IMG/VR virus record: IMGVR_UViG_3300029319_000164
Span: 1 to 28,442 of that record
Source: a virus
Direction: 5' to 3' (one strand)
DNA: 28,442 nucleotides
Made by a program: the position numbers and the translations under genes. The notes below the pieces were generated by a model, which had not been told where the DNA came from, made no database searches, and saw only the letters and a program-made list of their open reading frames with translations. Shown here piece after piece: positions 4,323 through 25,116 of the stretch; position 1 is the first letter of the stretch, and each line of letters opens with the position of its first letter.

Positions 4323-4724
4323 ATGCCTGTAGAACGGCTAAGCAAAGGATTTAAAGACGTAAGTTCATCATTTCAGAGTAATCCTCTGTCAAATGATCTG
4401 CTTGCGATTAAAAATGAGACTGCAATTGCCCGTTCTGTAAGGAATCTTGTCTTAACATATCAGGGTGAGAGACCATTTAACCAAATTTTAGGATCAAAGG
4501 TCAGTCGTTTATTGTTTGAAAATGTTAATGAGATTACTGCATCTGCAATAAAGGATGAAATTGAAACAACTATCAATAATTTTGAACCTAGGGTGAATTT
4601 ATTAGAAGTCAGAGTATCACCTGATTATAATGGATATGAATTTAATGTGAAAGTTCGTTATGAAATTGTTGGTATTGATGCATCACCACAACAGTTATCA
4701 TTTGTATTACAACCGACACGCTAA
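4323..4724 (+). CDS. gp25: Baseplate wedge subunit gp25
   Basis: This is the T4 gp25 homologue, a component of the baseplate wedge and related to the sheath-initiator proteins of other contractile systems (gp25-like family). At 133 residues it matches T4 gp25 (132). The conserved motif is present as NNFEPRVNLLEV (E88-P89-R90), followed by the beta strands YNGYEFNVKVRYEIVG. The N-terminal stretch LSNDLLAIKNETAIARSVRN and GERPFNQILGSKV are typical of the family. The start is set by the family length; no Shine-Dalgarno sequence precedes it. The stop overlaps the start of gp6 by one base (TAATG), so the two are translationally coupled, as expected for wedge proteins made in fixed proportion. Confidence 0.95.
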   Translation: MPVERLSKGFKDVSSSFQSNPLSNDLLAIKNETAIARSVRNLVLTYQGERPFNQILGSKVSRLLFENVNEITASAIKDEIETTINNFEPRVNLLEVRVSPDYNGYEFNVKVRYEIVGIDASPQQLSFVLQPTR

Positions 4725-6865: not shown

Positions 6866-9800
6866 ATGTCAGAAACTAGAGTCAAAATCCAAACAGTCGT
6901 TCAAAACCAACTGCCAGGTTTTGTCGTGGAAGAATCTCCACTTCTTGTTGAATTTTTAAAACAATATTATGTTTCTCAAGAATACACTTCAGGAACGTAT
7001 GATATTATTCAGAACATTGACAAGTATGTGAAACTTGATGAGATATTAAATCATGCAAGCACAGCAACTCTTTTATCTGACATAGATTCTATTACTGATA
7101 CTATCACTGTCTTTGAAGGAACTCTTACTGATGGTTTCCCTGATAAGTATGGTATTATTAAAATTGACGATGAGATTATTACATACACTAGTAAAACAAA
7201 TACAACCTTTGAGGGGTGTGTAAGGGGTTTTAGTGGCGTTACTTCTTATCGTAAAACAAATACCCCCGAAGAGTTGGTATTTACTTCTACAGAATCTTCT
7301 TCACACAGTGCGAACGCTACAATCACAAACTTAAGTTCTTTATTTTTGCAGGAGTTTCTGACAAAAATAAAGAAACAATTCTTACCTGGATTTTCTGACA
7401 GATCTTTGGCATCTGGTTTAAATCAAAATGTTTTTATCAAACAGTCAAAAGACTTTTACACATCTAAGGGCACGGATAGATCTTTTAAAATTCTTTTCAA
7501 TGCATTGTATGGAGAGAATGTTGATGTTATAAAACCAAAAGAATATCTTTTTAGACCTTCAGATGCTGGATATAGAAAAACTAGAGATATTGTTGTTGAA
7601 GCAATAAGTGGAAATCCATTAGATCTTCTGAATAATACTTTATATCAAGATGAATATCCTGACTATGGTATAAAAGTATCTTATGCTTCTATTACAGATG
7701 TTGAAAAGATACAAGTAGGTGAAAAAGTATTTTACAAGTTAGGTTTTGATAGCGATTATGATAAAGATATTAATCTGGAAGGATCTGTATATGGAAATTT
7801 TGTAGTTCATCCCAAAACTAGATTTGTTACTGAAGCAAGTTCTGGTTCAACTACAATTGATGTTGATTCAACTGTTGGGTTTCCAAATTCTGGAACTTTA
7901 ATATGTAAAAATTCTTCAGGGGATGATCTAACTTTAACGTATAATGGAAAATCTGTTACACAGTTCTATAATGTAGAGGGAATAAGTTCCTCCATCTCTA
8001 CTGCGGAAGAAATAAGATTAGATGTATTCGCTTATGGATATTCTGGAAATAGTACTGACATAATTTCAGTAAGAATAGGTAATGTTCTTGGGAATGTTGA
8101 AGTAATACAAGATACTTATTTCTTCTCAAAAGACGATACTGCAAAAGTAAAAAGTTTAGGTATTTCTCAAAAAAATCCAAAAACTGATAATTGGATTGAT
8201 AATATATCAAATACTTTTACTACAAAGAATGTTAGTTCAGTTGACAATCAAAGTCTCGTTTATAACATCGAAGTTTATGCTAATCACAATTTTAGAATAG
8301 GTGATAAGTTAAAAGCAACTAATGACTCTAGTGTTTCTATTGATTGTGACATTGTTGATGTCAAGAACGAGAAGGAATTTGTTGTTCAATCGCAAAGTCA
8401 ACTTGATATCAATTCTATTCTTGAACTGAATAGGTATATTCTCAAACCCAATTTCTCAAAATATTCTGGTCTAAACTCAAATTCTACAGACGTTCAGAAT
8501 ACTTATACAAATTACTCTAATGAAATCTTAGTTGCTTCTGATTCTTTACCATCTTATAAGAATCAGTTATTAAACCCATATGATAAAAAGATTACTCTTT
8601 CTGGCAACTATAGTGGCGAAGTATTTACAGTAACTTCAGTTAATGATCATGGTTTTTATACTGGTGATCAAATTTATTATTCTCCATTTACAGAAACAGT
8701 TGCTCAGAGTGCAGGAGAAGGAGAAGAAACATTAGTTGATGTTACAAGTAAATTTGATGAGTTAGACGAAGGTCTTTATTATGTTGCACGAGTCAATTCT
8801 ACAAGTTTTAAACTTGCAAAAAGTCCTTCTAATATTGTCAGCAATAAGTTTGTATCTGTAAGTGGTATTGTCACTTCAAATACATTCTCTTATTATGATT
8901 TCCAAGGAAAAGATATACAGGCACAAAATATCTTTAGAGAGATAAAAGAACCTGTAAACAAAAGTGGAAATTATACAACAACTCCAGGAAAAGTTGGCGT
9001 TCTTGTAAATGGCGTAGAAATTTTAAACTACAAATCGTCGGAATCTGTATCTTATGGTCAAATTAACACCATTGATGTAACAGGTCCAGGAACTGGATAT
9101 GATGTTATAAACCCACCAAGTCTTCATATAGAAGATTCTCTTGGTGTTGGAGCAACAGGAATTTGTGCTGTAGAAGGTTCTTTAGATAGAATTGACATTC
9201 TTGACAGTGGTTTTGATTATGTCAATACACCTGTTGTTACTATTACAGGTGGAAATGGAAAAAATGCAGAAGCAGAAGTCAATATGATTTCTGTAGAACA
9301 TGCGCCAGTTTTTACATCCGATAATGCATCAAATCTGAATATTTTTACAGATGTTATTGGGTTTACAACATATCATAAGTTTAGAGATAATGAAGAAGTA
9401 TTTTATCTGACAGATGGTCAAACTGGTATTGCAGGATTAACTACAGGAGCAAAATATAATGTTTCTGTAATTGATGCATTTAATGTAAAACTTTACAAAA
9501 AAGAGAGTGATTCTGTTGCAGGCATTAACACTGTAAACTTAAATGATTATGGTGTTGGAAATCATAGATTAAAGTCTGCAAATAAAAAGAAAATTATTTC
9601 CAAAATCATTGTAAAAAACATTGGAGAAGGATACTCAAATAAGGAGAGAACATCTCCAATATCTGGAATCAATACCGCAACAGACACTATCAATATTGAT
9701 TCGCATGGATATTCTACAGGAGAAGAAATTAAATATTCAACAACTGGATCGGTTGTTGAAGGTCTTTCAGTAAGTAAGACATATATTGTTAAAAAAATTG

Positions 9801-12800
9801 ATGATAACTCCTTCAAAGTTGCAGAATGTGGTATTGGAACAGTAGCAAAAACATATTATCTGGATACTGATCAATATATTGATTTTAGATCTGTAGGTTC
9901 TGGAGTACACTCTTTCAATTATACACCAATTAGTGTTGATATAGTAGGAAATATTGGAGTTTCTACATTAACAGGACAAGATTTCTCCGCAAAAACTCAA
10001 CCAGTTTTCAGAGGTGGTATTGAATCTATACATTTAACATCTAATGGTTCTCAATATGGTTCCGATGAAGTTATTAACTATGACAGACAACCCATTTTTG
10101 AACTGAGAAGTGGAAAAAATGCCGAGTTACTGGCTATTGTAGATGTTCAAGGAACTATTCAAGAAGTTTTAGTATTAAATGGAGGTTCTGGATACAATTC
10201 TCCACCAAGTCTCAACATTAAAGGAACAGGAAAATATGCAAGGTTAGTCCCTGTCATTGAAAATGGAGAAATTTCTAAAATTATAACAGAGAATGGTGGT
10301 GTTGGATATGGAGACGGAACTACTGTCGAAGTAGTTCCATCTGGACAAGGATGCAAATTGTTTGCTAATATTCAAAAGTGGACTGTTAACTTATTCCAAA
10401 AATATTTTAATATTATTGGTAGTGATGATGGTATTGTAACTTTATCAGATAGAAGTGAGTATGGACTTCAATATTGTCACTTGTACGCTCCTAGAAGTCT
10501 CAGAGAATCCATATATGCAAAAGATCAAGATGGATTGACTTTATATGGTATTGCAGATTTAAGAAAGTCAAATAATGAAGAAGTTCCTTCATCCAACCAC
10601 TCTCCTATTATCGGATGGGCATATGATGGAAATCCAATTTATGGACCATATGGATTTGCAGAACCATCTGGTGGTGTTGTCAGATCGATGGAGTCTGGAT
10701 ATAAATTAGTTTCCAAGCAAAATAGACCATCTTTTGCAAATTTCCCACAAGGATTTTTTATTGAGGATTATGAGTTTACAAAATCTGGAGACCTTGATAA
10801 AAACAATGGAAGGTTCTGTGTAACTCCAGAGTATCCTAATGGAGTTTATGCTTATTTCTCAACAATTAGTTCTAGTTCAATAGACACTGATGGTCCATTT
10901 AGAGGGTATAAGAGACCTGTTTTTCCATATTTTATTGGAGATACTTTTAGATCTGAACCCAATTCATTTAACTTCAGTAAGGAGTCAAATCAAAAAGATT
11001 ATAAAGTTAATGATCACAATTGGTTCAGAAATACAACCAGGTATCAATTAAGAGGAAATAATGTTAATAGTTCTTATGACTACATTTATAATCCAAACGA
11101 CTTTAAAGAGCAGACGATAAATGTTGATGGCATTTTAACAGGTGGCGTTGAATCTGTAGGTATTCTTACTGGTGGCGATGGTTATAATCCACTCAACATT
11201 ATTACATTTGACAATACAAATACTGGTGGTTCTAATGCTTCTGCTAGAGTCTCAAGAGTATTTGGAAAACCAGTAAACACTATTAGTGCAGCTACAACTT
11301 CATTTACGGAAGTTGAATTTTCAGTTGACAGTGTTGGTAGAGTAATTGGTTTTACAACCTCTCCACATGGATTCAAAAATATTGATATTATCAATGTTTC
11401 TGGTTTAAATACTTCATTCTCAAAAATTGAAGGAAGTTATACCATTGGTATTAGAACTGACAGTTTTGTTACAACATTAGGAATTAGTTCAGTTTCAGTC
11501 ACTGGACTGACTACATATTTTTATGTTTCAGGTGCATTAGAATTTCCATATATCAAAGAAAATGATGTACTTGGAATTGGCACCCAGGAAAAAGTTAAAG
11601 TACTCAATGTTGATAAAAAATCTGGAAGAATAAGAGTATTACGTCAATATAATTCTACTGTTGGATCTTCTTATTCCGCATCTACAGTTCTTTTTGAGGA
11701 TCCAAGAAAATTCACAATCAACACAGGATTTAGAACTGATTATTCTTACGATGTAAACACAGAATTATATTTCAAACCGTCAGAATCTGTCGGATTAGCA
11801 ACTGTTGCATCTGTTGGTAGTGGAACTACTGTTTCGTTCTCTTTACCTGGTATCGGTGCTACACAAGTATTCGTTCCTTATCAAGCAATCTATTTCCCAA
11901 ATCATGGACTTAAAACAGGAGATAGAGTAACTTACTCAACTCATGGTGGATCTGAGATAAACGTAACTAATGGAAGTATTTATTTTGATCTGCCACAAAC
12001 GCAAGATTTGTATATTGCAGAAATTACAAAAGATCTGATTGGCATTTCTACTGTCAGACTTGGTTTAGGTACAGATGGTTCTTTTGTTGGTGTTGGAACA
12101 ACAAACTCCACCGGTTTGCTATTCTTTAACACTGTTGGAACTGGCGATAATCATAGTTTTACAACTAAAAATAATTCCATTGTTGGTACTGTTTCTAAGA
12201 ATATCGTAACTGTATCGACAGCATCAACTCATGGTTTGAGTAGTGGCGATAACATTAGAATTTCAAATATTCCAACAGATCAAACTGAAATTGTTGTAAA
12301 ATATAGCGATTCAAACAGAAGATATACATTTGGTCAAAAATCCTTTAATGCTGCCGACATAGATGTTTCTGAAAATACCATTTACATAGAGAACCATAAT
12401 CTTTCTAAGGGAGATAAGGTAATATACGTTGCTTCCACTTCAGCAAGTGATCTGATCAGCGAAGAAATGTATTATGTTGATGTTTACTCAAAAGATAAAC
12501 TTAAGTTGTGCAGAACAATTTACGATTTGTATTTGAGTGAACCAAATTATGTAAATCTGACATCTACTTCTGATGGAGAGTTATTGCCAGTAAATCCAAA
12601 TTTAAAACTTTATAGAAATAAATCGGTTAAGTTTGATCTGTCAGATTCTTCTCTTTCTTCTTCAAATTCTGGAATCATATATTCCGCATTTGAATTAAAC
12701 TTCTATAAAGACTCAAATTATCAGTTTAAATTTGACGGAACTGGAACTACTAGAAACTTTGAAACCGTAAAAACCTCTGGTAAAGTTGGTATTGACACTT

Positions 12801-15800
12801 CAGCAAGTGTTACACTCCAGTTAAACGATTCATTTGATGATATTCTTTACTACAGATTAGAAACTATCAACGATCAATATATTTCATCGGATAAAAAAGA
12901 AATTATAATTGATACTGAAGTAAACTCTAACAACCAAATAACTTTAGTTGACAGCGAATATTCTGGTGAGTATAGAATAACAGGAGTGGGAACCACTACT
13001 TTCACCTTCGATCTTAACAGTTTTCCAGAAAAAGATTTATATAATAAAACAAATTCAAACATTTTCTATGATACCAAATCAGTGAGAGCATTTGGACCAA
13101 TTTCTGCGATTGAAGTTATAAGTGAAGGAAACAAATATGAGTCTGTTCCTAGCATCGGTTCTATTGAGTCCACACACGGTTCTGGAGCAATTTTAGAAGC
13201 GACAAGTAAAACTATCGGAAGAATTGTTAAAAAAACCGTTGAAGATGTTGGTTTTGATTATCCATCAGACACCACACTTTCTCCAGCATTTAACTTACCA
13301 GAATTAATTAAAGTAGAGTCTTTAACATCATTTGCTTCTATTGGCATTAGTTCTGCAGGTAAAGATTACTTAGTCCCACCAGATCTTATTGTCTTAGATG
13401 GATATACGAACAATATAGTTAATGATGTTGATATTGAATATAAAATTGGAGACAATGAAGTTAATATCAAGAGAAATACATTTGGAATGTATAATGTAAC
13501 TCCAAGAATTGTTCCAATCAATAACAGTAACGGTGTTGGTATTAATTCTATTACGTTTGATAATACGACTAAGGATGTAACTTTAGGAATTGCTACGGGT
13601 TTTAGTGATGGTTTCCCATTCAATGTTGGGGATAAAATCTTAATTGAAAATACTAGTGTTGGTCTCAATACCACAGGAAGAGGATACAACTCTTCTGCAT
13701 ATGGATATGATCTTTTCACAGTTACAGCAGTCAATCCTCTTCTTGGGGGTTATTCTGCAACGGTAACATTTAATGTAAAAGAATATTTTACAGGTTCAGA
13801 ATCACCTGGCGTTTTTGATCCATCAAGGTCTTCTGGAAGAGTCATTAGAGAAGCAGATTTTCCAATTTTTGACATAGAAATTAAAACAAATGACTTTATC
13901 ATTGGTGAAGAAGTTTTCTCAGAAACTACATCTGGTACTGTTGAAAAATGGGATCGAAGAACAGAATATATTAAAATATCTACTAATACAGATTTCTCTA
14001 TTGGAGAAATTATAAGAGGACAAACTTCTAATACTAGTGCAATAGTATCGAGTAAAATTGATTTTGACTCATACGCTGAACTATCTCCTAGCGTAAGAGT
14101 TAATAAAGGATGGACTTATGATACTGGTGTATTAAACAATAATATTCAAAGAATTCCAGACAATGATTATTATCAACAGTTCTCATATTCTTTAAAATCT
14201 AGGATTCCTTATGGAACCTGGAATGAACCTGTCCAAGCACTCAATCATACAACTGGATTCTTAAAGTTCTCAGATCTTATTATTGAAACTAAGGAAGATG
14301 GGGAAGGTTCTGCAATTGTTGATCCAGAGGATTCTATATTTGAGCTCGTAGTTGATATCGTTGGTTCTGGTAATTTAAACTGTACATACACTTTTGATTT
14401 AGCATCAGAAAATAACTTAAATTTGAGTGGAATGTATTCTAATGAAATTACGTTGAATAGTCGTGTTCTTGTAGACTATTTTGAATCTGTAGGTAATAGA
14501 GTTTTAAATATAGACAATTTCAGTTATCTGTTTAACAATATCCCAAGAGCAACTAGATATTCAATTGTTGATGATTTTGATATCAGTTCGGCAAGAGTTA
14601 GAAAGTATTTCACTTTTGTTCGTGATAAGAGATTTACGATGCAAAGACAAGTCATGGCAGTATCTTTACTGCATGACGATCAAAATGCATATCTCAATCA
14701 ATATGGAAGGGTAGAATCTGTAGTAGATTTGGGTTCATTTGACTTCTCAATAAATGAGAGTTTAGGACAACTTAGGTTCTATCCAATTAAATACACCGTA
14801 AATGATTATGACGTGACTGTATTGTCATTTGACCTTTTAAGCAATGTTTCTTATGGATCTAGTAATCCTATCACTTTAGGTAACATTGTTAATATTGAGT
14901 CAGAGAATACTGTTATATCTTCAGGTTCAGTTGCTGCTACAACTGTTGTTGGTATTGCATCTACGTATCGTTCTTCTAAAGTACTTGTTGAAATAGGAGG
15001 AACTGATGGTTCATATCATGAGTTTGATGAAATTAACCTCATCCATGATGGAACAAATGTTGATATTGTTGAATATGGACAATTAACTGACAACTCAGTT
15101 TATAGTACATTTGGTATTGCTGGATTAGGAACGTATATTCCATATATTGATGGAGACCAAGTAAAAGTAGACTTCAAACTTAACTCATCTCTCAGCGTAG
15201 ACTTAAGCATTAATAGTCTTGCAGTTTCAGTTGCCATTGCTAGTACTAGTTCTGTTGGTGTTGGAACTGACGAACTGTCTACAGCACGTTTGAGTTCTGG
15301 TTATGTTGCTATATCTTCTTCGCCCACTCCATCAGAAACAGTTGTTAAGGAATATCCAAACAACCATTCTTCAGCATACTATATTATTAGTGTTGAAGAT
15401 ACAACCAATAATCGTTATGAAATGTCTGAAGTTGTACTTGTTGATAATGGTTCGGAAGCATACGTTACCGAGTTTGGTACTTTAAGTACTAATGGTTCCA
15501 TTGGTCAAGTTGGCGCTGCAATGACAACAAATGGAACACAACTAACATATACACCAAATGCCAATATTGATGTTGAGATTAGAGTATTTGAAGGTGCTTT
15601 GGGTCTGGTCAAGGGCACTGTTCCACAAGATGAAATTGATATTAACAATGCAAAAATAAGAACTGGAAATGGTAGTTATGAAGGAACTTCTAAGGATGTT
15701 AGAAAGAGTTTTGAACTTACTCATAATCAAGACCCAATTTTCTTTAGATATTTTGAAGGAAACTCTGCAGTTGGAGTTAATACTAATAACGATAGTATCT

Positions 15801-18800
15801 TTATTCCCAATCATTTCTTTGTTACTGGTGAAGAAGTAAAATATTCTAGTTCTAGTTCAGATACTACTCAAGCAATTGGAATTGGATCCACTACAATTTC
15901 TGGCATTGGTGTTACTGATAAACTTCCATCTACAGTTTTTGTTTATAAAGTCAATGAGAGTAATATTAGACTTGCAGCAACTGCAGCTGATGCTTTAAGA
16001 CAAGTTCCAAATACTTTCAATTTAACTCATGTTGGTATTGGAACATCACATAGTTTTACTGCTAAGAATCAAAACTCTAAAGTTATGTTGACAATTGATA
16101 ACTATATTCAGTCTCCAATTGTTGCAACTTCTATAACATCTTCTTTAAGTAAGAATGTATCAAATGCAGATAATAGACTTGAACTTACAGGAATAACATC
16201 ATTCTTTAGTGGAAATTTAATTAAAATTAATGAAGAAATAATGAAGATTAGTGTTATTGGTTTTGGAACCACAAATGCTATTCTTGTTGAAAGACCTTGG
16301 ATGGGAACTGGGGTATCAACTCATTCTTCTGGCGACACGGTTACTATTGTTCAAGGAAACTATAATATTATAGACAACACTGTTCATTTCGTTGAACCCC
16401 CTTATGGAAAAAATCCAATTAGTTCCGATTCTAACCCACCATCGGAAAGAGACTGGATTGGAGTTACTACATCCTCCAAATTCCAAGGCAGAACTTTCTT
16501 GAGAAGTGGAGTTACAAATTCATCCAATGAGGCTTATGCTAATAACTATATTTTTGATGATATTTCAAGTGAGTTTAATGGAGTACAAAAAGACTTTAAA
16601 CTTACATCAGAAAAACAAAATGTTTCAGGATTCTCAACTTATCATGGCATTGTCTTGATAAATGGCATTTTCCAAGGACCACCTCCACAAGATGGACGAC
16701 TTGGAGATTATAGTTTCACTGAAAATGTTGGAGTATCTACTATTTCTTTCACAGGAACTGCAACATCAGTTGGTTATGATGTTAATAATGCAAATATTCC
16801 TGTTGGGGGAGTTATTGTTTCTGTTGGTTCCACTCAAGGTTTTGGTTTCCAACCACTTGTTGCAGCTGGTGGAACTGCAACAGTTTCTCCTACAGGAAGA
16901 ATCATCGCTGTAAGTATTGGAAATAGTGGTTCTGGATATAGAGGTGGAATGCAAACAGTGAATGTTGGAGTTATGACAGAAAGCACAGGAACTCCAAATA
17001 TTGATTTAATTGGAACTGCAAATATAAATGATGGACATGTTACTGATGTCAATATCACTAATCCTGGTTCTGGATATACCACATCAAATCCACCCATAGT
17101 TATATTCGATACACCACTTTCTTATACTAATATTCCATTAGTATACAGTTCTTCTTCTATACAAGGTGATGGAACTAGTGCAACTGTCGATATTGTTGTT
17201 GGACAAGGTTCTAGTGTAATTGACTTTACATTTAAAAACACGGGATATTCTTATGGTGTTGGCGAAATTCTAACAGTCAATGTTGGTGGAAACACTGGTA
17301 TACCATTAGATACAACAAAAACATATTCAGAATTCCAGCTGACTGTTGATGAAATATATAAAGATAATTTCTCTGGTTGGGTTGTAGGTCAGTTTGAGCA
17401 TTTGGATGATATTAGTGGATTATTTGATAGTGCAAGAAAGACATTCCCACTTGCCATTTCAGATAATCCAGTAAGTATTAGAGCAGCGAAAGGTTCTCTC
17501 ATTGACGTGAAATCATTGCTACTTGTATTTGTTAATGATGTTTTACAAGTTCCTGGAGAGTCTTACAGTTTTGAAGGTGGTAGTGTTCTTACATTTACTG
17601 AAGCACCAGATGCTGGAGATAGTGCAAAAGTTCTATTCTATAAAGGATCTGGCGATGATGTTGATGTGGTATTCAGAGATGTTTTGGAAACTGTTAAAGT
17701 TGGCGACACCTTGAAACTTAATAATGATCCAAAACTTGGACAAAGTGTTGGTTTAAGACAAAATGCTAGAGTCGTGACCGGAATCAATACTACAGATTCT
17801 GTTCAGACAAACCTTTATGGTGGTCCTGGTATTACTACTAATGATACTTTATTGAGACCAGTTGAATGGTGCAGACAAACTTCAGATAGAATTATTGATG
17901 GCAAAATTGTCGGAAAATCTAGAGTCAAATATGAACCTCTGATAAATCCATCTTGTTACGCTATTAGTTCTGTTGGAGTTGGAACAACAACCATATATGT
18001 TGATAATATCAAACCATTCTTTGATGCAGAAAATGAAAGTACTGTAAGATCTTTCCAAAACAAGATAACACTTACTTCTCAGGACTCTATTGTTCCTGCA
18101 TTAGCAACTGCTACTGTTTCTTCTGCAGGAACTATATCAGCAATTGCCATTTCTGATGGTGGTTTTGGATATACCTCAGCACCTCTGGTTGTTATACAAT
18201 CTCCAGTAGGACTTGGAACAACTACCAGAGCTAGTGCAACAGCAACTATTTCTTCTGGTGTAGTTAACTCTATTACTATAACAGATGGCGGTTCTGGTTA
18301 CGGCACAACTGATACTCCAGCAGTTCTGATTGAAGCACCAAAAGTCATTACCGAAGATACTAATGTTGATCTATATGAAGGAGATTCTGGTATTATTGTT
18401 GGTTATGCAGTAACCAACTCCATCTTATCACTCGATTTACACATTCCATACGATTCTTACTTAAAGGATGAAACTGTTGTTGGAACCGCCAAAACACTCA
18501 GTTCTATTGATGTTGGAGATTACTTTATTGTTTATAACTCAAACATTGAAAATGCATCTACGGAAGTAAGAGCTGTAGATGCTAATTCACAAGTTGTAGG
18601 AGTCGGAACACAATTTGTCGATAGTGTTTACTATGTGCATTCTGCAGAAGATGTACAAGTTAATGTTGTTGGATTGGGAGTAACCACGGTTAGAAGAGTT
18701 GGTACAAGAGTTGGAGTTTCTACTATAGATTATAGTTCATCCACAATCACTTCTGATGATAGTTTGTTATATGAATACAGTAATGTGTCATTTGTTTCAT

Positions 18801-18985
18801 CAATCCCAGATACTGCTGGTTTTTCAACTTCAATGTTCTTTGGTAACTTTAGTTGGGGTAAGATTAACATTACTGGTCCTACTAATTCTTACAATATTTA
18901 CAACCTCAATGGAATTGGCGGTATATCAACTTCAGTAGTTGTAAACCGAACAAATCCTCTTAAATATGCTAACTACACTGATTAG
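6866..18985 (+). CDS. Giant modular virion structural protein, 4039 residues (gp7 position)
   Basis: One uninterrupted frame of 12.1 kb. The N-terminus (PGFVVEESPLLVEFLKQYY, then RSFKILFNALYGENVDVIKP near 200) looks like the wedge-attachment end seen in cyanophage giants. The gene sits between gp6 and gp8, where T4 has gp7 (1032 residues), so a wedge role is likely but not shown. Along the chain I see about eight repeats of the type HG-TGD-V-Y ... YYV ... FKLA (near residues 470, 592, 833, 944, 1677, 1788, 1841, 2979) and about 14 GGSGY-type strands (from near 738 to 3820). There is a YHYH-like domain around 1195-1370 (WAYDGNPIYGPYG at about 1251) and a duplicated beta domain (about 2702-2772 and 2832-2909). 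No signal or membrane segment is seen. It probably forms a long surface-exposed baseplate arm. No frameshift or broken segment is visible. Confidence 0.88.
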   Translation: MSETRVKIQTVVQNQLPGFVVEESPLLVEFLKQYYVSQEYTSGTYDIIQNIDKYVKLDEILNHASTATLLSDIDSITDTITVFEGTLTDGFPDKYGIIKIDDEIITYTSKTNTTFEGCVRGFSGVTSYRKTNTPEELVFTSTESSSHSANATITNLSSLFLQEFLTKIKKQFLPGFSDRSLASGLNQNVFIKQSKDFYTSKGTDRSFKILFNALYGENVDVIKPKEYLFRPSDAGYRKTRDIVVEAISGNPLDLLNNTLYQDEYPDYGIKVSYASITDVEKIQVGEKVFYKLGFDSDYDKDINLEGSVYGNFVVHPKTRFVTEASSGSTTIDVDSTVGFPNSGTLICKNSSGDDLTLTYNGKSVTQFYNVEGISSSISTAEEIRLDVFAYGYSGNSTDIISVRIGNVLGNVEVIQDTYFFSKDDTAKVKSLGISQKNPKTDNWIDNISNTFTTKNVSSVDNQSLVYNIEVYANHNFRIGDKLKATNDSSVSIDCDIVDVKNEKEFVVQSQSQLDINSILELNRYILKPNFSKYSGLNSNSTDVQNTYTNYSNEILVASDSLPSYKNQLLNPYDKKITLSGNYSGEVFTVTSVNDHGFYTGDQIYYSPFTETVAQSAGEGEETLVDVTSKFDELDEGLYYVARVNSTSFKLAKSPSNIVSNKFVSVSGIVTSNTFSYYDFQGKDIQAQNIFREIKEPVNKSGNYTTTPGKVGVLVNGVEILNYKSSESVSYGQINTIDVTGPGTGYDVINPPSLHIEDSLGVGATGICAVEGSLDRIDILDSGFDYVNTPVVTITGGNGKNAEAEVNMISVEHAPVFTSDNASNLNIFTDVIGFTTYHKFRDNEEVFYLTDGQTGIAGLTTGAKYNVSVIDAFNVKLYKKESDSVAGINTVNLNDYGVGNHRLKSANKKKIISKIIVKNIGEGYSNKERTSPISGINTATDTINIDSHGYSTGEEIKYSTTGSVVEGLSVSKTYIVKKIDDNSFKVAECGIGTVAKTYYLDTDQYIDFRSVGSGVHSFNYTPISVDIVGNIGVSTLTGQDFSAKTQPVFRGGIESIHLTSNGSQYGSDEVINYDRQPIFELRSGKNAELLAIVDVQGTIQEVLVLNGGSGYNSPPSLNIKGTGKYARLVPVIENGEISKIITENGGVGYGDGTTVEVVPSGQGCKLFANIQKWTVNLFQKYFNIIGSDDGIVTLSDRSEYGLQYCHLYAPRSLRESIYAKDQDGLTLYGIADLRKSNNEEVPSSNHSPIIGWAYDGNPIYGPYGFAEPSGGVVRSMESGYKLVSKQNRPSFANFPQGFFIEDYEFTKSGDLDKNNGRFCVTPEYPNGVYAYFSTISSSSIDTDGPFRGYKRPVFPYFIGDTFRSEPNSFNFSKESNQKDYKVNDHNWFRNTTRYQLRGNNVNSSYDYIYNPNDFKEQTINVDGILTGGVESVGILTGGDGYNPLNIITFDNTNTGGSNASARVSRVFGKPVNTISAATTSFTEVEFSVDSVGRVIGFTTSPHGFKNIDIINVSGLNTSFSKIEGSYTIGIRTDSFVTTLGISSVSVTGLTTYFYVSGALEFPYIKENDVLGIGTQEKVKVLNVDKKSGRIRVLRQYNSTVGSSYSASTVLFEDPRKFTINTGFRTDYSYDVNTELYFKPSESVGLATVASVGSGTTVSFSLPGIGATQVFVPYQAIYFPNHGLKTGDRVTYSTHGGSEINVTNGSIYFDLPQTQDLYIAEITKDLIGISTVRLGLGTDGSFVGVGTTNSTGLLFFNTVGTGDNHSFTTKNNSIVGTVSKNIVTVSTASTHGLSSGDNIRISNIPTDQTEIVVKYSDSNRRYTFGQKSFNAADIDVSENTIYIENHNLSKGDKVIYVASTSASDLISEEMYYVDVYSKDKLKLCRTIYDLYLSEPNYVNLTSTSDGELLPVNPNLKLYRNKSVKFDLSDSSLSSSNSGIIYSAFELNFYKDSNYQFKFDGTGTTRNFETVKTSGKVGIDTSASVTLQLNDSFDDILYYRLETINDQYISSDKKEIIIDTEVNSNNQITLVDSEYSGEYRITGVGTTTFTFDLNSFPEKDLYNKTNSNIFYDTKSVRAFGPISAIEVISEGNKYESVPSIGSIESTHGSGAILEATSKTIGRIVKKTVEDVGFDYPSDTTLSPAFNLPELIKVESLTSFASIGISSAGKDYLVPPDLIVLDGYTNNIVNDVDIEYKIGDNEVNIKRNTFGMYNVTPRIVPINNSNGVGINSITFDNTTKDVTLGIATGFSDGFPFNVGDKILIENTSVGLNTTGRGYNSSAYGYDLFTVTAVNPLLGGYSATVTFNVKEYFTGSESPGVFDPSRSSGRVIREADFPIFDIEIKTNDFIIGEEVFSETTSGTVEKWDRRTEYIKISTNTDFSIGEIIRGQTSNTSAIVSSKIDFDSYAELSPSVRVNKGWTYDTGVLNNNIQRIPDNDYYQQFSYSLKSRIPYGTWNEPVQALNHTTGFLKFSDLIIETKEDGEGSAIVDPEDSIFELVVDIVGSGNLNCTYTFDLASENNLNLSGMYSNEITLNSRVLVDYFESVGNRVLNIDNFSYLFNNIPRATRYSIVDDFDISSARVRKYFTFVRDKRFTMQRQVMAVSLLHDDQNAYLNQYGRVESVVDLGSFDFSINESLGQLRFYPIKYTVNDYDVTVLSFDLLSNVSYGSSNPITLGNIVNIESENTVISSGSVAATTVVGIASTYRSSKVLVEIGGTDGSYHEFDEINLIHDGTNVDIVEYGQLTDNSVYSTFGIAGLGTYIPYIDGDQVKVDFKLNSSLSVDLSINSLAVSVAIASTSSVGVGTDELSTARLSSGYVAISSSPTPSETVVKEYPNNHSSAYYIISVEDTTNNRYEMSEVVLVDNGSEAYVTEFGTLSTNGSIGQVGAAMTTNGTQLTYTPNANIDVEIRVFEGALGLVKGTVPQDEIDINNAKIRTGNGSYEGTSKDVRKSFELTHNQDPIFFRYFEGNSAVGVNTNNDSIFIPNHFFVTGEEVKYSSSSSDTTQAIGIGSTTISGIGVTDKLPSTVFVYKVNESNIRLAATAADALRQVPNTFNLTHVGIGTSHSFTAKNQNSKVMLTIDNYIQSPIVATSITSSLSKNVSNADNRLELTGITSFFSGNLIKINEEIMKISVIGFGTTNAILVERPWMGTGVSTHSSGDTVTIVQGNYNIIDNTVHFVEPPYGKNPISSDSNPPSERDWIGVTTSSKFQGRTFLRSGVTNSSNEAYANNYIFDDISSEFNGVQKDFKLTSEKQNVSGFSTYHGIVLINGIFQGPPPQDGRLGDYSFTENVGVSTISFTGTATSVGYDVNNANIPVGGVIVSVGSTQGFGFQPLVAAGGTATVSPTGRIIAVSIGNSGSGYRGGMQTVNVGVMTESTGTPNIDLIGTANINDGHVTDVNITNPGSGYTTSNPPIVIFDTPLSYTNIPLVYSSSSIQGDGTSATVDIVVGQGSSVIDFTFKNTGYSYGVGEILTVNVGGNTGIPLDTTKTYSEFQLTVDEIYKDNFSGWVVGQFEHLDDISGLFDSARKTFPLAISDNPVSIRAAKGSLIDVKSLLLVFVNDVLQVPGESYSFEGGSVLTFTEAPDAGDSAKVLFYKGSGDDVDVVFRDVLETVKVGDTLKLNNDPKLGQSVGLRQNARVVTGINTTDSVQTNLYGGPGITTNDTLLRPVEWCRQTSDRIIDGKIVGKSRVKYEPLINPSCYAISSVGVGTTTIYVDNIKPFFDAENESTVRSFQNKITLTSQDSIVPALATATVSSAGTISAIAISDGGFGYTSAPLVVIQSPVGLGTTTRASATATISSGVVNSITITDGGSGYGTTDTPAVLIEAPKVITEDTNVDLYEGDSGIIVGYAVTNSILSLDLHIPYDSYLKDETVVGTAKTLSSIDVGDYFIVYNSNIENASTEVRAVDANSQVVGVGTQFVDSVYYVHSAEDVQVNVVGLGVTTVRRVGTRVGVSTIDYSSSTITSDDSLLYEYSNVSFVSSIPDTAGFSTSMFFGNFSWGKINITGPTNSYNIYNLNGIGGISTSVVVNRTNPLKYANYTD
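14960..15600 (+). repeat. Tandem domain duplication inside the giant protein
   Basis: Residues about 2702-2772 (VLVEIGG, EFDEINLIHDG, VDIVEYGQL, GTYIPYIDGDQVKVDF) and about 2832-2909 (YYIISVEDTT, EMSEVVLVDNG, AYVTEFGTL, GTQLTYTPNANIDVEIRVF) share the same order of strands and turns. The two copies are clearly related but diverged, so the duplication is old. It is a protein-level repeat within one gene. Confidence 0.6.
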
Positions 18986-19013: not shown

Positions 19014-21860
19014 ATGGCAAGAGTAGCGATAAATACCGGCTCAGCTGCAAATGATGGAACAGGTGATAGCCTTCGTGGTGCCGGTGGTAAAATAAATTCA
19101 AACTTTGTTGACTTATACAATTTTCTGGGTGATGGTACTGATCTAACTCCTAGTTGGGATGTAGTAAGTACTGGTATCGTTACTACTGCAAATGTGGGTA
19201 TTGGAACTACAATTCCTAGATTTGATTTAGAAGTTGGGGCAGTTGGATCTTCTAGCACTTCTTTATATGTTCATGGAGAAGCTAATGCTACTAGTTTTTC
19301 TGGTTCTGCCTCTGGATTAACAAGTATTCCTTCAAGTCAGTTGACTGGAGCACTTCCAGCTCTTGATGGTTCTGCATTGACCAACGTTGTTGGTAGTGGA
19401 TCTGGTGTTGTTATTCAAGAAGAGGGATCGGCTGTAGGAACTGCAGGAACTATTGACTTTGTGGGATCTGCAGTGACCGCAACATTTAGTGGTGGTATTG
19501 CTACTGTTAGTATTAGTGGTGGGGGAATTCAGGGTGTTGTTGTTCAAGAAGAGGGGTCAACTGTAGGAACTGCAGGAACTATTGACTTTGTGGGTACTGG
19601 AGTAACTGCGACATTTAGTGGTGGTATTGCCACAGTTAGTATTAGTGGTGGTGGAGGTGGAGGTGCCTCTTCTATTAATGACTTATCTGATGCTACTACT
19701 GGTGGAACTGCAAGTCTTGGTTTAGGTTCACAATCTCTTGGACAGGCTAGTGGCAACAACACAGGCAGTAACAATGTTGCAGTTGGTGATGCTGCCATGT
19801 ATGCCATTACATCTGGCGATTACAATTCAGCTTTAGGTGTTGCCGCTTTACGTTATAATAATAGTGGATCATATAATTCAGCAGTAGGATACCATGCCTT
19901 ATATTACTGCAATGAAGGATATGATAATACTGCTGTTGGTTATGAAGCGGCCTACAACATAACAACTGGATATGGCAATGTAGCAGTCGGAAAACAAGCA
20001 CTTAGAACACATAATGAAGGAAATCGTAATACTGCTATAGGTTGGAAAAGTTTATATTATACTACAGGAAATTCTAACACTGGTGTTGGTGCCGTTGCCC
20101 TAGAAAACAATAAAACAGGAACTGAAAACACCGCGGTTGGTAATGCTGCTTTACAACAAAATATTGAGGGAATTCAAAATACTGCATTGGGCAGTGCTGC
20201 TGGTTATGGAAATACCAGTGGTAATTATAATGTTGCCATAGGACGTTATGCTTTAAAGGAAAATCAAACTGGCAACAGTAATGTTGCAATTGGAAACAGA
20301 GCATTAGAGAACCTGGAAAATAAAGACTCATGTATTGCTATTGGATCCCGAGCCGGAACAGCATCAACAAGTTCACAATGGTTTGTTGCACTTGGTGATT
20401 CCGCTCTCGCTGATCAAACTACTGCCAACTACAACACGGCTTTAGGACATCAGTGTCTGGGCAAAGCAACAACAGGTGGTTCAAATGTTGCGGTTGGTGC
20501 TAATGCAGTATATAAACTCACTACAGGAAATTATAATACTGGAGTTGGTTATAATGCATTATATGAATGTACTGGAAGTTCAACTGGTAACGTAGCACTT
20601 GGTTACAAGGCTGGATCTGAGGTAGCAAATGGCGATTACAACACTTTTGCTGGTTATGGAGCTGGAGAAAAAGTCACATCTGGCAGCGGTAACGTTGCTG
20701 TAGGTCATAATGCTTTAGGTGTAAGTACTTCAGGAAATAATAATGTTGCTGTTGGAGAGTATGCGCTTAATGGTGCTACTACTGGATATCAAAATGCTGT
20801 TCTTGGTTATAATGCAGGATATAATATTACAGAGGGATATTATAATGTCGCGGTTGGAGCAGATGCAGCAAAACTTTCCACGACCGGTACTAACAATGTA
20901 TCTATAGGACACCAAGCAGCACAAACCCTAACCACTGGTAGTAATAACATAACCATTGGATATAACGCACAACCTAGTAGTGCAACTGCTTCTCATGAAA
21001 TTACTATTGGTGATAGTTTTGCCAAGACCTTGCGTATTCCTGGATTAAATGGGAATGACGGTGAAGTCCTTAGTTACAATTCATCAACTTCTAGTATCGC
21101 TTTTAGTGATTATACCGGAGACCTTTCAGATGCTGTAACAAGTAGATGGACCCTTGGTGCTAATGGTACTAATCATTATACATTTACTGGACCTGGTTTT
21201 TCTGGAGCTACAGATGATCCAACAGTATTTTTACAAAGAGGGCATACATATGAATTTGTAAATGGAATGAATGCCCATCCTTTCAAAATTCAACTTGAAT
21301 ATCAAAATACAACAGGTACAGCGTATGCTACTGGCGTAACTAACAATGGAGCACAAAATGGCACTATAAAATTCAAAGTGCCAATGGATGCACCCAATAA
21401 ACTTCACTATCAATGTACTTCCCATGTGGGAATGTCTGGAACCATCTTCATTGGACCAGCACAAAATGTTCCTGTTGGACAAAGACAAGTTGTTTCTGCA
21501 TCAACTGGTAACGTAGCTTCAAACAATAGTGCAAACATTTCAATTCCTGGATTTAAAACATATAGTTTGTTAAAAGTTGATATAGATCATCCTGCATGGG
21601 TGAGATTATATGTTGACTCTTCTTCAAGAACATCAGATTCTAGTAGAGTTTATACAACAGATCCAACACCAGGTTCTGGTATGATAGCAGAAGTTCGCAC
21701 TACAACTGCAGGCACCAGCACATTCTTAATGTCTCCAGGAGTTATTGGATGGAATAATGATTCCACTACAAGTGAAACAATATATGCAAGAGTTACAAAT
21801 AATGACTCTTTAACGAGAGACATTACAGTCAGTTTAACCGTAGTTAAGTTAGAAGGCTAA
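19014..21860 (+). CDS. Tail fibre or adhesin with YadA-like repeats and C-terminal cupredoxin-like domain
   Basis: This 948-residue protein probably forms a trimeric fibre attached to the baseplate. The N-terminus INTGSAANDGTGDSLRGAGG ... KINSNFVDLY is a common phage fibre-anchor module. Residues about 131-216 are two 43-residue direct repeats. Residues about 248-675 are some 25 repeats of about 16-17 residues of the form N-VAVG-AL-TTG, the head repeat of YadA/Hep_Hag adhesins, expected to fold as a trimeric beta roll. Residues about 710-815 look like a cupredoxin domain with H755, C801, H804 and M807, the set of type-1 copper ligands in the CxxHxxM spacing of amicyanin. A last beta-rich domain (about 816-948) may be the receptor-binding tip. 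The stop overlaps the protease start by one base. No signal peptide, as expected for a virion part. Copper binding is inferred. Confidence 0.85.
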   Translation: MARVAINTGSAANDGTGDSLRGAGGKINSNFVDLYNFLGDGTDLTPSWDVVSTGIVTTANVGIGTTIPRFDLEVGAVGSSSTSLYVHGEANATSFSGSASGLTSIPSSQLTGALPALDGSALTNVVGSGSGVVIQEEGSAVGTAGTIDFVGSAVTATFSGGIATVSISGGGIQGVVVQEEGSTVGTAGTIDFVGTGVTATFSGGIATVSISGGGGGGASSINDLSDATTGGTASLGLGSQSLGQASGNNTGSNNVAVGDAAMYAITSGDYNSALGVAALRYNNSGSYNSAVGYHALYYCNEGYDNTAVGYEAAYNITTGYGNVAVGKQALRTHNEGNRNTAIGWKSLYYTTGNSNTGVGAVALENNKTGTENTAVGNAALQQNIEGIQNTALGSAAGYGNTSGNYNVAIGRYALKENQTGNSNVAIGNRALENLENKDSCIAIGSRAGTASTSSQWFVALGDSALADQTTANYNTALGHQCLGKATTGGSNVAVGANAVYKLTTGNYNTGVGYNALYECTGSSTGNVALGYKAGSEVANGDYNTFAGYGAGEKVTSGSGNVAVGHNALGVSTSGNNNVAVGEYALNGATTGYQNAVLGYNAGYNITEGYYNVAVGADAAKLSTTGTNNVSIGHQAAQTLTTGSNNITIGYNAQPSSATASHEITIGDSFAKTLRIPGLNGNDGEVLSYNSSTSSIAFSDYTGDLSDAVTSRWTLGANGTNHYTFTGPGFSGATDDPTVFLQRGHTYEFVNGMNAHPFKIQLEYQNTTGTAYATGVTNNGAQNGTIKFKVPMDAPNKLHYQCTSHVGMSGTIFIGPAQNVPVGQRQVVSASTGNVASNNSANISIPGFKTYSLLKVDIDHPAWVRLYVDSSSRTSDSSRVYTTDPTPGSGMIAEVRTTTAGTSTFLMSPGVIGWNNDSTTSETIYARVTNNDSLTRDITVSLTVVKLEG
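19404..19661 (+). repeat. 129-bp tandem direct repeat in the fibre gene
   Basis: Two adjacent 129-bp units (19404-19532 and 19533-19661) encode 43 residues each. They are nearly identical over long blocks such as VGTAGTIDFVG and ATFSGGIATVSISGGG, and differ mainly at synonymous sites. The reading frame is kept. The high DNA identity suggests a recent duplication or ongoing recombination that changes fibre length. Confidence 0.8.
19755..21040 (+). repeat. YadA-head repeat array (about 25 units)
   Basis: Units of 48-51 bp encode the pattern N-xVAVGxxAL-xxTTG. I count about 25 copies. They differ in DNA sequence more than in protein, so selection acts on the structural repeat. The last units lose the pattern (ITIGYNAQPS, ITIGDSFAKT), marking the end of the beta roll before the cupredoxin-like domain. 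Confidence 0.8.
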
Positions 21861-23515
21861 TGACAAAGTACATAGTAACCGTAAAAAAAGGAACTGATAT
21901 TGAGTCTTTTTATAATGATATGGAAACTCTTGGAGGAGACTCCAGAATACCTTCGAGACAAGTATCTTGTTATGACAGGAGACCTACTAGTAGAAACACT
22001 GGATATGATTTAGAAGATGATGAGATTGAATCTTTATTGAAAGATAATAGGGTATTGGATATTCAAAGTCAGTCTTCGATAGATTCGTTGATAACTAAAC
22101 CATTGTGGACACAAACGTCATCAGATTGGGACAAAAGTTCTACACCAACAAACACCAATAGAAATTGGTCTTTGTATCGATGTGTTAATGGATCGCAAGT
22201 GTCAAATTGGGGTTCTAATCATACTTCAGATGCTAGTGCCACTATTACAACAACATCATCAGGAAAAAATGTAGATGTTGTAATAGTGGATGGACATCTT
22301 AACACAAGCCATCCTGAGTTTGCTGTTAATGATGATGGTACTGGCGGAAGTAGAGTTCAACAATTTAATTGGTATTCACTAACAAATGAAATTACAGGTG
22401 GTGCAAATGGATCTTACGCTTATAGATCTGGAACTGATTTAAATAATGCAAATGATAATCATGGAATGCATGTTGCTGGCACAGTAGCAGGAAACACTCA
22501 AGGTTGGGCTAGAGATGCTAACATTTATTATGTTAGTCCATATGACGGACAAATAGCTAATCAGTACCTTTTTGAATATATAAGAGCTTGGCATAACCAG
22601 AAATCAATAAATTCTGATACTGGCAGAAGGAATCCAACTATTGTCAATAATAGTTGGGGTTCATCATATGTATTAACTAGATCTAATGTTACTGCTATTT
22701 CATATAGAGGAACCTCAGATAGTGATGGTTCATGGACTGATAGTGAATTAGATGCATATGGTATAAGAGATTATACTGCATCAAACATTAATGTTCAGGC
22801 GTATGTTCCATCATTTATTGCGGATATTGAAGATGCTGTAGATGATGGAATTATTTTTGTAGGTGCTGCAGGAAATGATTCAACTAAAATTGATGTTGAA
22901 GGAGGTACTGATTACGATAATTATATAACTTCCGGATCTAATTACTACTATCATAGAGGAAATTGGACCAGTGCTGGTGCAGTGTCTGGTACTGGTGGAG
23001 CGCGACTTTCAGTTTGTGTAGGTGCAGTAAGTGCTTTAGTAAATGAATCTAAAGCAACTTTCAGTAATTGTGGATCAAGAATCGACATATTTGCTCCAGG
23101 AGATAATATAATTTCTCCTGTTAATGATGGAACTATTACTGGAGGTTCTGTTACTACTGTTAACGACTCTAGAAATTCTTCATATAAACTTGCAAAATAT
23201 GATGGTACTAGTATGGCATCTCCACAAGTTTGTGGTGTTCTTGCATGTTTACTTGAACAATATCCAAATATGAATCAGAGTGACGTTATTGATTATTTGA
23301 ATCAACATGCAAAAGGGAGTCAAATGACTGCAACCAGTGGTGGACATACTGATGATACAGATCTTCAAGGTGCTGATAATGAATACTTATTTTATTTTAA
23401 AGAAAGACCTGAAACTGGAGTATCTATCCCCAGATATACTTATAGTTCTAGGAACTCATCATCTAATGGTGTAAAGTATCCAAGAACTAACAGAATGGTG
23501 ACAAAGCGTCAATAA
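21860..23515 (+). CDS. Subtilisin-like serine protease (peptidase S8) with pro-domain
   Basis: This 551-residue endopeptidase carries all catalytic residues of family S8: Asp144 in VVIVDGHLN, His201 in NDNHGMHVAGT, the oxyanion Asn339 in GAAGNDS and Ser451 in YDGTSMASPQ. The spacing is that of a complete catalytic domain (about 135-500). Residues 1-75 (MTKYIVTVKKGTD ... DDEIESLLKDNRVLDIQ) resemble the inhibitor-I9 pro-domain that helps folding and is then cut off. About 60 residues lie between pro-domain and catalytic Asp. A 50-residue Arg- and Ser-rich tail (RPETGVSIPRYTYSSR, ending VTKRQ) may anchor it to the virion. There is no signal peptide. The start overlaps the fibre stop (TAATG), so it is co-translated with the fibre, and gp8 follows. 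Likely roles are cleavage of virion proteins during assembly or of host surface proteins; the substrate is unknown. Confidence 0.9.
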   Translation: MTKYIVTVKKGTDIESFYNDMETLGGDSRIPSRQVSCYDRRPTSRNTGYDLEDDEIESLLKDNRVLDIQSQSSIDSLITKPLWTQTSSDWDKSSTPTNTNRNWSLYRCVNGSQVSNWGSNHTSDASATITTTSSGKNVDVVIVDGHLNTSHPEFAVNDDGTGGSRVQQFNWYSLTNEITGGANGSYAYRSGTDLNNANDNHGMHVAGTVAGNTQGWARDANIYYVSPYDGQIANQYLFEYIRAWHNQKSINSDTGRRNPTIVNNSWGSSYVLTRSNVTAISYRGTSDSDGSWTDSELDAYGIRDYTASNINVQAYVPSFIADIEDAVDDGIIFVGAAGNDSTKIDVEGGTDYDNYITSGSNYYYHRGNWTSAGAVSGTGGARLSVCVGAVSALVNESKATFSNCGSRIDIFAPGDNIISPVNDGTITGGSVTTVNDSRNSSYKLAKYDGTSMASPQVCGVLACLLEQYPNMNQSDVIDYLNQHAKGSQMTATSGGHTDDTDLQGADNEYLFYFKERPETGVSIPRYTYSSRNSSSNGVKYPRTNRMVTKRQ

Positions 23516-23547: not shown

Positions 23548-25116
23548 ATGGCTGCAATTATAACTGATCAACTTCGTATTTTGAATGCGAATAATTTTGT
23601 AGTTGGTGTTGCTTCTACGAGTAACTCATATTATTCATTTGTTGGTTTACCAAACGCAACAGATTATGCTACTGATTGGAATATAGATCCACCATCACCT
23701 ACCGACAACTTTGGTGAGGAAAATGATTATTGGGACACAATGATCGCGTTGAAGAAAATAACAAGAGATGATGTAAGACAGGTTGTTAAAAAGTCAACAT
23801 GGACTTCTGGTATTACATATGACATGTATCGTCATGATATTAGTGCCTCTAATCCAGCAACGCCTTCCAATTCTGTTGACTTATATTCTGCAAACTATTA
23901 TGTAATGAATAGTGACTTCAGAGTTTATATTTGTTTGAGTAATGGTGCAACTCCAGAAAATCCTGCAGGTAGACCTTCATTAGACGAACCAACATTTATT
24001 GATCTGGAACCAAGAGAAGCCGGGACTAGTGGAGATGGTTATATTTGGAAATATCTTTATACTATTAAACCTAGTGAATATGTAAAATTTGATACTACAG
24101 AATACATGCCAGTTCCACTAGAATGGGGAACAAACACAGATGATTCTGCTGTAAGAAATAATGCAGCAACTAGTGGTCAAATAAAAGTTGTTATCATTAA
24201 AGATAGGGGAGTTGGTGTAGGAACTGCTAATAGAACATATACTAGAATTCCTATTAAAGGTGATGGTTCTGGTGCAGAAGCAACGGTAGTTGTTAATAAT
24301 GATGCGAAAGTTGATAGTATAACTGTTTCTAGAGGTGGTTCTGGATATACATTTGGAACTATAGATTTAACAGCAGGCAATGTTCCATCTGGAACTACTT
24401 CTCCTGTTTTTGACGTTATCATTCCGCCTCAAGGAGGGCATGGATCTGATATCTATAGGGAGTTGGGTGCATCTAATGTTCTTATGTATTCTAGAATTGA
24501 AAACGATACCCAGAATCCAGACTTTATTACTGGAAATGAAATAGCAAGAGTTGGTATAGTTCAAAGCCCTATTAGTAATGGAACAAGTGAACTTTTAACT
24601 CTAAACAAAGCAAGTGCAGTGTACGCACTTAAATTGACTGGTATTGGATATAGTTCTGTCACTTTTGCCGCAGATACACAAATTACACAAACAATCGGTA
24701 TTGGTTCTACTGCTTTTGGTAGAGTAGTTTCATATGATCAAAACACTGGAGTTTTAAAGTATTGGCAAGATAAGTTTCATGTTGGGTTTAATACCGATGG
24801 AACTAAAAATGCATCTCCAACATATGGTTTTGATATGCATAGATTTACTGCAGATATTGGATCCGGGGGTTCATTAAATATTATTGGTGGATCTGCAACC
24901 TTAGGAATTGAAACTACATTTGGTAGTACTAGCAACCCAGGTATAAGTACCATAATAAATAGTAGGACATACTATTTGGGTCAACAATTTATTAATGGAG
25001 TGTCCCAACCAGAAGTTAAAAAATATTCTGGAAATATAATTTACGTTGACAATAGACCATCAATTACAAGGTCATCTAACCAAAAAGAAGATATTAAAGT
25101 TATTTTGCAATTCTAA
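23548..25116 (+). CDS. gp8: Baseplate wedge subunit gp8
   Basis: This is the homologue of T4 gp8, a wedge protein at the baseplate periphery. Matches I can see to T4 gp8 are GDGYIWKYLYTI near residue 160 (T4 GDGYVWEYLFEI) and the C-terminus IIYVDNRPSITRS ... EDIKVILQF (T4 MIYMENRPPI ... INILFTF). At 522 residues it is much longer than the T4 protein (334). Most of the extra length lies in the second half, including a GGSGY module near 257 like those in the giant protein and a segment IGIGSTAFGRVVSYDQNTG. The late-promoter core is 14 bases upstream and there is no Shine-Dalgarno sequence. The next gene begins six bases after its stop. Confidence 0.9.
   Translation: MAAIITDQLRILNANNFVVGVASTSNSYYSFVGLPNATDYATDWNIDPPSPTDNFGEENDYWDTMIALKKITRDDVRQVVKKSTWTSGITYDMYRHDISASNPATPSNSVDLYSANYYVMNSDFRVYICLSNGATPENPAGRPSLDEPTFIDLEPREAGTSGDGYIWKYLYTIKPSEYVKFDTTEYMPVPLEWGTNTDDSAVRNNAATSGQIKVVIIKDRGVGVGTANRTYTRIPIKGDGSGAEATVVVNNDAKVDSITVSRGGSGYTFGTIDLTAGNVPSGTTSPVFDVIIPPQGGHGSDIYRELGASNVLMYSRIENDTQNPDFITGNEIARVGIVQSPISNGTSELLTLNKASAVYALKLTGIGYSSVTFAADTQITQTIGIGSTAFGRVVSYDQNTGVLKYWQDKFHVGFNTDGTKNASPTYGFDMHRFTADIGSGGSLNIIGGSATLGIETTFGSTSNPGISTIINSRTYYLGQQFINGVSQPEVKKYSGNIIYVDNRPSITRSSNQKEDIKVILQF

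Follow-up and report, generated by a model that had tools for sequence, protein, structure and literature searches.

Residues 711-813 of a phage fibre protein form a true cupredoxin domain with a complete set of type-1 copper ligands, as judged from structure prediction and from sequence. The gene lies in a window of 28,442 nucleotides, by which we mean the whole stretch of DNA that was analysed. On the one hand, the preliminary description of a cupredoxin site in a cyanophage fibre holds. On the other hand, the site is not confined to one phage, and the domain recurs widely as a module in the structural proteins of marine cyanophages. Because the four ligands are retained in nearly every relative, we consider that these cyanophage virions are likely to bear a metal ion, with copper as the best candidate, on the machinery that contacts the host.

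The fibre gene and its place in the baseplate cluster

The gp8-like protein encoded in the window is up to 68% identical to those of SynMITS9220M01 and S-SM2. Accordingly, the 37.4-kb record comes from a cyanophage of T4-like, Kyanoviridae type. The genes of the baseplate cluster and the parts of the fibre protein are located as follows.

4724..6847, plus strand: gp6-like baseplate wedge gene
6866..18985, plus strand: ORF of 4039 aa in the baseplate cluster
19014..21860, plus strand: fibre gene, 948 aa, with the position and N terminus of a gp9-like protein ("baseplate wedge tail fiber connector")
19014..19145, plus strand: residues 1-44, N-terminal region common to cyanophage gp9-like baseplate proteins
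19773..20996, plus strand: residues ~254-661, about two dozen 17-aa repeats of the N-x-A-V-G type, starting 17 aa apart
21144..21452, plus strand: residues 711-813, cupredoxin domain
21465..21857, plus strand: residues 818-948, C-terminal jelly-roll-like domain of 131 aa (pLDDT 95.4)
21860..23515, plus strand: S8 subtilase gene (PF00082, 4e-29)
23548..25116, plus strand: gp8-like baseplate wedge gene

The cluster also encodes a DUF4815 protein. A giant structural gene precedes the gp9-like gene in RB11-B (annotated "baseplate wedge initiator") and in S-SSM4 and S-WAM1 ("virion structural protein"), and the position of the 4039-aa ORF is held elsewhere by even longer ORFs (20.8 kb in S-SSM4). 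The name "fibre" used in the preliminary description is fair, since the gene is encoded between the gp6 and giant baseplate genes and gp8. Both the common N terminus and the place between the giant baseplate gene and gp8 are those of Kyanoviridae gp9-like proteins.

The first 39-62 residues of the fibre protein show 52-62% identity to the gp9-like proteins of RB11-B, S-SSM4, S-WAM1, and P-TIM40, and its cupredoxin region shows 32-55% identity to their C-terminal ends. Judged from this likeness, residues 1-44 are probably the baseplate anchor. The 17-aa repeats replace the middle of these four relatives and probably form an elongated beta-roll stalk. The four proteins stop at the cupredoxin domain or within ~5 residues of it, and the fibre of the window adds the 131-aa domain. 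The domain had been placed at the fibre tip; it does lie near the distal end, but it is not the extreme tip because the 131-aa domain follows it.

This C-terminal domain is an independent module, with a cupredoxin match in the same ORF in 27 of 80 relatives. It forms the end of numerous phage proteins that are otherwise unalike (80 contigs kept, L175-L254). Its fold search gave no clear solved relative, the best Z being 8.0 with many tied jelly-rolls; we do not claim a receptor role for it from the fold search.

Two other proteins encoded in the window are of separate interest. Relatives of the subtilase in ACG-2014e/h and phrog_9158 end in a cupredoxin-like domain of their own. In P-SSM2, the gene immediately ahead of a fibre that contains two cupredoxin domains is a PF00082 gene. 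The occurrence of a virion protease next to fibres merits study in its own right. The protein encoded at positions 3257-3970 (plus strand) is conserved, occurs also in Pelagibacter and Flavobacterium phages, and matches phrog_3704, which is labelled "ferredoxin"; records name it purM or ferredoxin. It has no Pfam match to either, and this name looks like an inherited mislabel.

In the S-SCSM1 genome, a homologue is named "long tail fiber proximal subunit" and carries the note "virion protein". For this phage, mass spectrometry of purified particles is reported to have identified 45 proteins (PMC9602691). In T4, the N terminus of gp9 binds gp7, and the C-terminal domain of gp9 is the coaxial attachment site of the long tail fibre (PMC3004832). 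If cyanophage gp9-like proteins work as T4 gp9 does, the cupredoxin would be located at the fibre joint or in the distal part.

Fold and kinship of the cupredoxin domain

The four putative copper ligands of the fibre are encoded at the following positions.

21276..21278, plus strand: H755, first type-1 ligand; the next residue is a near-invariant Pro (HPF)
21414..21416, plus strand: C801, thiolate ligand
21423..21425, plus strand: H804, third ligand
21432..21434, plus strand: M807, axial ligand

These residues are located exactly where the preliminary description had put them and follow the canonical type-1 order, and the spacing C-x2-H-x2-M is indeed equal to that of amicyanin (C-T-P-H-P-F-M). 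The fibre protein has five cysteines, of which C801 is the sole one in the cupredoxin domain. Among the 13 main ORFs of the window, the pattern C-x2-H-x(2-4)-M was found once, and this is the fibre motif. When the 13 main proteins were shuffled with their composition preserved, H-x(20-70)-C-x2-H-x2-M appeared in 19 of 4000 shuffles, indicating that the motif alone is a ~0.5% event before homologues are considered.

We predicted the structure of residues 703-821 with AlphaFold2, using 32 homologues. The model (pLDDT 92.5, pTM 0.85) has eight strands and, as predicted, shows the Greek-key beta-sandwich of 7-8 strands of the cupredoxin superfamily. H755 is located in the loop before strand 757-760, and the loop that joins strand 796-801 to strand 808-814 holds C801, H804, and M807; in this predicted fold, the arrangement is the canonical type-1 layout. 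When the model was compared with the PDB by Foldseek, the best 50 matches listed were all copper proteins (rusticyanin, nitrite reductase, laccases, ascorbate oxidase, AcoP, CueO). VIA-align superposed it on the N-terminal domain of 2dv6, the nitrite reductase of H. denitrificans, with Z 11.2 over 98 residues (2.6 A, 22% identity), and on rusticyanin with Z 8.7-9.8. The cupredoxin fold that had been suspected from the strands is thus borne out by the model together with the Foldseek and VIA matches, and structure prediction did not contradict it. Among predicted viral structures, the best matches were cyanophage gp9-like and tail-fibre proteins, and weaker ones included subtilase-type proteins and giant-virus "beta-sandwich" proteins. 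The BFVD entries named "beta-sandwich protein" are from Marseillevirus LCMAC201/202 and Pithovirus LCPAC302/304.

In terms of sequence, we used a profile of 32 phage domains over 119 residues (alignment A1). Searched against all PDB chains at E<=1, this profile matched only plastocyanins, amicyanins, pseudoazurins, and copper nitrite reductases. Pfam Copper-bind (PF00127) was matched by 19 of the 32 members, and the NCBIfam amicyanin model (TIGR02657) also by 19 (best 1.7e-5), with no match listed for the window member. These PDB matches, together with a relative (L037) that exceeds the PF00127 cut-off (22.7 vs 21.2), point to kinship with the cupredoxin superfamily. The window domain alone stays under that cut-off at 14.1 bits, and its own Pfam scan was weak (Copper-bind E 0.06-0.08, CBM_4_9 E 0.03). 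The carbohydrate-binding module CBM_4_9 was rejected because it is matched by only one of the 32 members and the fold search returns solely copper proteins. As a positive control, the phage-domain profile was run on P-SSM2, where it found petE, annotated as plastocyanin, and aligned His, Cys, His, and Met of this protein to the ligands.

A single-sequence search gave a PDB match to 2vmj with E 5e-4. This entry is presumably a nitrite reductase engineered with the loop of amicyanin, and its loop letters are identical to those of 1aac. Since the loop is that of amicyanin, we did not rest the case on this match and used the profile search instead. Likewise, we do not claim the domain as a member of the amicyanin family: the spacing would agree with membership, whereas the His-Asn feature and the match to the curated model are absent.

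Ligand retention and distribution

None of the four ligand residues was present in the seed peptides used to fetch the first relatives. In alignment A1, the four ligands are nevertheless among the 11 invariant columns out of 119. Wider searches collected 197 distinct domains covering both ligand regions, of which 190 have the set His, Cys, His, Met (HCHM), one has HCHQ, and six have no cysteine. The ligands are therefore not freely lost: they are conserved in the family as expected for a type-1 copper site, losses occur as a set, and the homologue alignment proposed in the preliminary description did not speak against the site. Single departures are rare among all domains seen, amounting to one HCNM and one HCHQ. 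The HCHQ copy (L132 ORF 526, residues 1411-1526) has Gln for the axial Met, reminiscent of stellacyanin-type sites. The Pro after the first His is present in 147 of 149 relatives, and the C-x2-H-x2-M spacing in 137 of 149.

Clustering below 50% identity, with the ligand columns excluded from the identity count, gave 38 clusters. The Cys and the second His are both present in 32 clusters and both absent in six, and they are never split (Fisher p 3.6e-7, a guide only, because the clusters are not fully independent). All four ligands are kept in 31 clusters, and one cluster keeps the Cys with Gln in the axial place. Alignment A2 was built mostly from intact representatives. In a sample gathered via the unrelated C-terminal domain, 24 domains were intact, three had lost the set, and one was truncated. 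At least three state changes are needed on the starred branches of the tree, indicating that the ligand change happened more than once.

Domains without the ligands, mostly sister copies, keep the fold signature, and some coexist with an intact copy within one phage or one protein. In RB11-B, a fibre paralogue has no ligands (GGFPFYL...YQASNVAGM) and its sister in the same phage is intact. Tandem copies without ligands are found in L227 (ORF L227:4385), and L024, L025, L028, and L029 (second ORF) have upstream copies without ligands, each in a protein that also contains an intact copy. A further ligand-less sister copy is encoded on the minus strand of L281. Considering that unused ligands would drop out singly, their joint retention or joint loss matches a working metal site and argues for metal binding over an inert relic.

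The module was found in about 344 phage records at E<=1e-3, nearly all of them marine cyanophages, together with one Pelagibacter phage. The proteins that carry it are fibres, gp9-like proteins, another baseplate protein, subtilases, a podovirus protein, and portal-adjacent structural proteins. The first genome scan for cellular relatives, made with A1, found none; bacterial relatives came up when a diverged phage domain served as the query. These HPF-type cupredoxins (L255-L278) come from MAGs of Bacteroidota, Myxococcota, and Bdellovibrionales; all 26 fully covered domains carry the four ligands, and three others are partial matches. In the tree of these short domains, most forks are open and no direction of transfer can be read.

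Role of the metal site and comparison with known systems

Based on sequence conservation, the cupredoxin domain very likely binds a metal. The reading that we place ahead of the others, with an even chance of being right, is a metal-stapled distal module in a baseplate-anchored fibre. The cupredoxin would be a module plugged in close to the distal end of the fibre, which is probably trimeric. The apo-domain would fold in the host cytoplasm and may then take up a copper ion from the lysate or from seawater. In this case, the Cys-His-His-Met site would tie the H755 loop to the C801-M807 loop, and the stapled loops could give a stiff beta-sandwich, resistant to proteases and salt, that presents the C-terminal receptor-side domain. 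We infer four parts of this model: copper as the metal, its presence in the virion, stapling over redox chemistry, and the trimer. The use of the module in fibres, baseplate proteins, subtilases, and a podovirus is consistent with a building-block role. Several points count against the stapling model. Free copper is scarce in seawater, the first His is followed by Pro and not by the Asn of amicyanin and plastocyanin, and the window domain scores below the Pfam cut-off. Also, the ligand-less sister copies keep the fold signature, indicating that the staple is not essential for the fold. The axial Met contributes little to binding strength, yet it is kept almost as strictly as the other ligands (one Gln case, L132); this exceeds the need of pure stapling and hints at redox tuning.

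In terms of redox chemistry, the copper centre could exchange electrons with the host envelope or with superoxide or peroxide near photosynthetic cells, and sensing or exploiting the redox state of the host surface could trigger a change in the fibre or baseplate. The complete type-1 set, retained jointly with its axial Met, would suit this role, as would the nearest folds, which are electron-transfer and redox copper proteins, and the predominance of phages of photosynthetic hosts among the matches. However, such a centre has no known partner or electron path, and the module also occurs in the Pelagibacter phage, the podovirus protein, and portal-adjacent structural proteins, so that its use is linked neither to photosynthesis nor to any single trigger. 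We consider this role unlikely, and it is similarly improbable that cyanophage fibres and baseplates carry redox-active type-1 copper centres whose redox state serves to sense or engage the host surface. If the redox reading were true, these would, to our knowledge, be the first blue-copper proteins to form part of a virion, and a large share of the cyanophages in the ocean would have them.

The metal might instead assist adsorption, when the fibre docks to a metal-uptake or metal-binding surface protein of the host, as a copper counterpart of the iron "Trojan horse" idea put forward for marine phages. The domain lies near the distal end, ahead of the C-terminal domain, and iron in tail fibres of marine phages has been proposed (PMC11705849). 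However, the metal of a type-1 site is buried and tightly bound, and is thus poorly suited to being donated or to acting as a bridge; there is no known host receptor, and the domain is found in baseplate and portal-adjacent proteins as well. We regard such copper-dependent adsorption as unlikely. The site could also hold another metal in the virion, such as zinc, or be usually empty while its ligand set is maintained. Soft metals other than copper can occupy sites of Cys, His, and Met, the metal cannot be read from the ligand pattern by itself, and free copper is very low in the cytoplasm where the phage assembles. An axial Met would be unusual for a zinc site, and an empty site is at odds with the joint conservation of the ligands, so we hold this alternative to be improbable too. 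The preliminary description had allowed for a fold with unused ligands, that is, a vestigial cupredoxin whose beta-sandwich was borrowed as an inert scaffold. The ligand-less sister copies demonstrate that the fold is usable alone. On the other hand, the four ligands persist in 31 of the 38 clusters, the Cys and second His are always present or absent together, and the axial Gln cluster is the sole one to combine the Cys with a changed ligand. Because the ligands are kept or lost as a set and not one by one, this explanation is disfavoured and appears very improbable.

If virions carry copper, the cyanophages behind the matching records would be metalloprotein particles in a copper-poor ocean, and questions would open up on copper-dependent adsorption, virion stability, and the viral share of marine copper ligands. 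The ligand-less sister copies offer natural controls that separate fold from metal. In viral metagenomes, such domains could pass for plastocyanin or nitrite-reductase-like metabolic genes.

The fold superfamily and the site are already textbook knowledge, and the use as a conserved virion module appears to be unreported. In the open-access papers searched, we found no description of cupredoxin domains as parts of phage virions, and "copper" in some cyanophage papers refers to microscopy grids or films. The viral nirK of PMC8115048 was considered as such a domain and rejected, as its two copper motifs and 67-70% identity to bacterial NirK argue for a real NirK.

Among known systems, amicyanin (1aac) shares with the phage domain the C-x2-H-x2-M motif of the same spacing, an upstream His, and the cupredoxin fold, and hhalign puts C, H, and M in register. 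It differs in having Asn after the first His, where the phage domain has Pro, and identity is low; amicyanin is a soluble electron carrier, whereas the phage domain sits inside a large fibre and is without a methylamine dehydrogenase partner. Plastocyanin, including petE of P-SSM2 (PSSM2_230), is matched by the profile with the four ligands aligned, but petE is an auxiliary photosynthesis protein with C-x2-H-x4-M, and the fibre domain is structural with a shorter loop. The N-terminal domain of 2dv6 and rusticyanin are the best structural matches (Z 11.2 and 9.8); they are cellular redox proteins with 16-22% identity. The bacterial HPF cupredoxins share HPF...C-x2-H-x2-M and up to 64% identity to a phage-type query, but many of them are short with lipoprotein-like N termini and others are large.

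T4 gp37-type tail fibres have iron-binding HxH sites in a trimeric needle. An iron-binding HxH tail-fibre site has been proposed for alterophage R22Y (PMC11705849). These iron sites are alike in placing a metal in a phage fibre, with a proposed structural or adsorption role; on the other hand, they belong to an unrelated fold in a trimeric needle, and the window has a type-1 copper-like site within one chain. We know of no copper site in T4 gp9, the socket of the long tail fibre. Relatives annotated as gp9-like have the N-terminal region and genomic position of the window protein, which differs from T4 gp9 in being much longer and having a repeat stalk.
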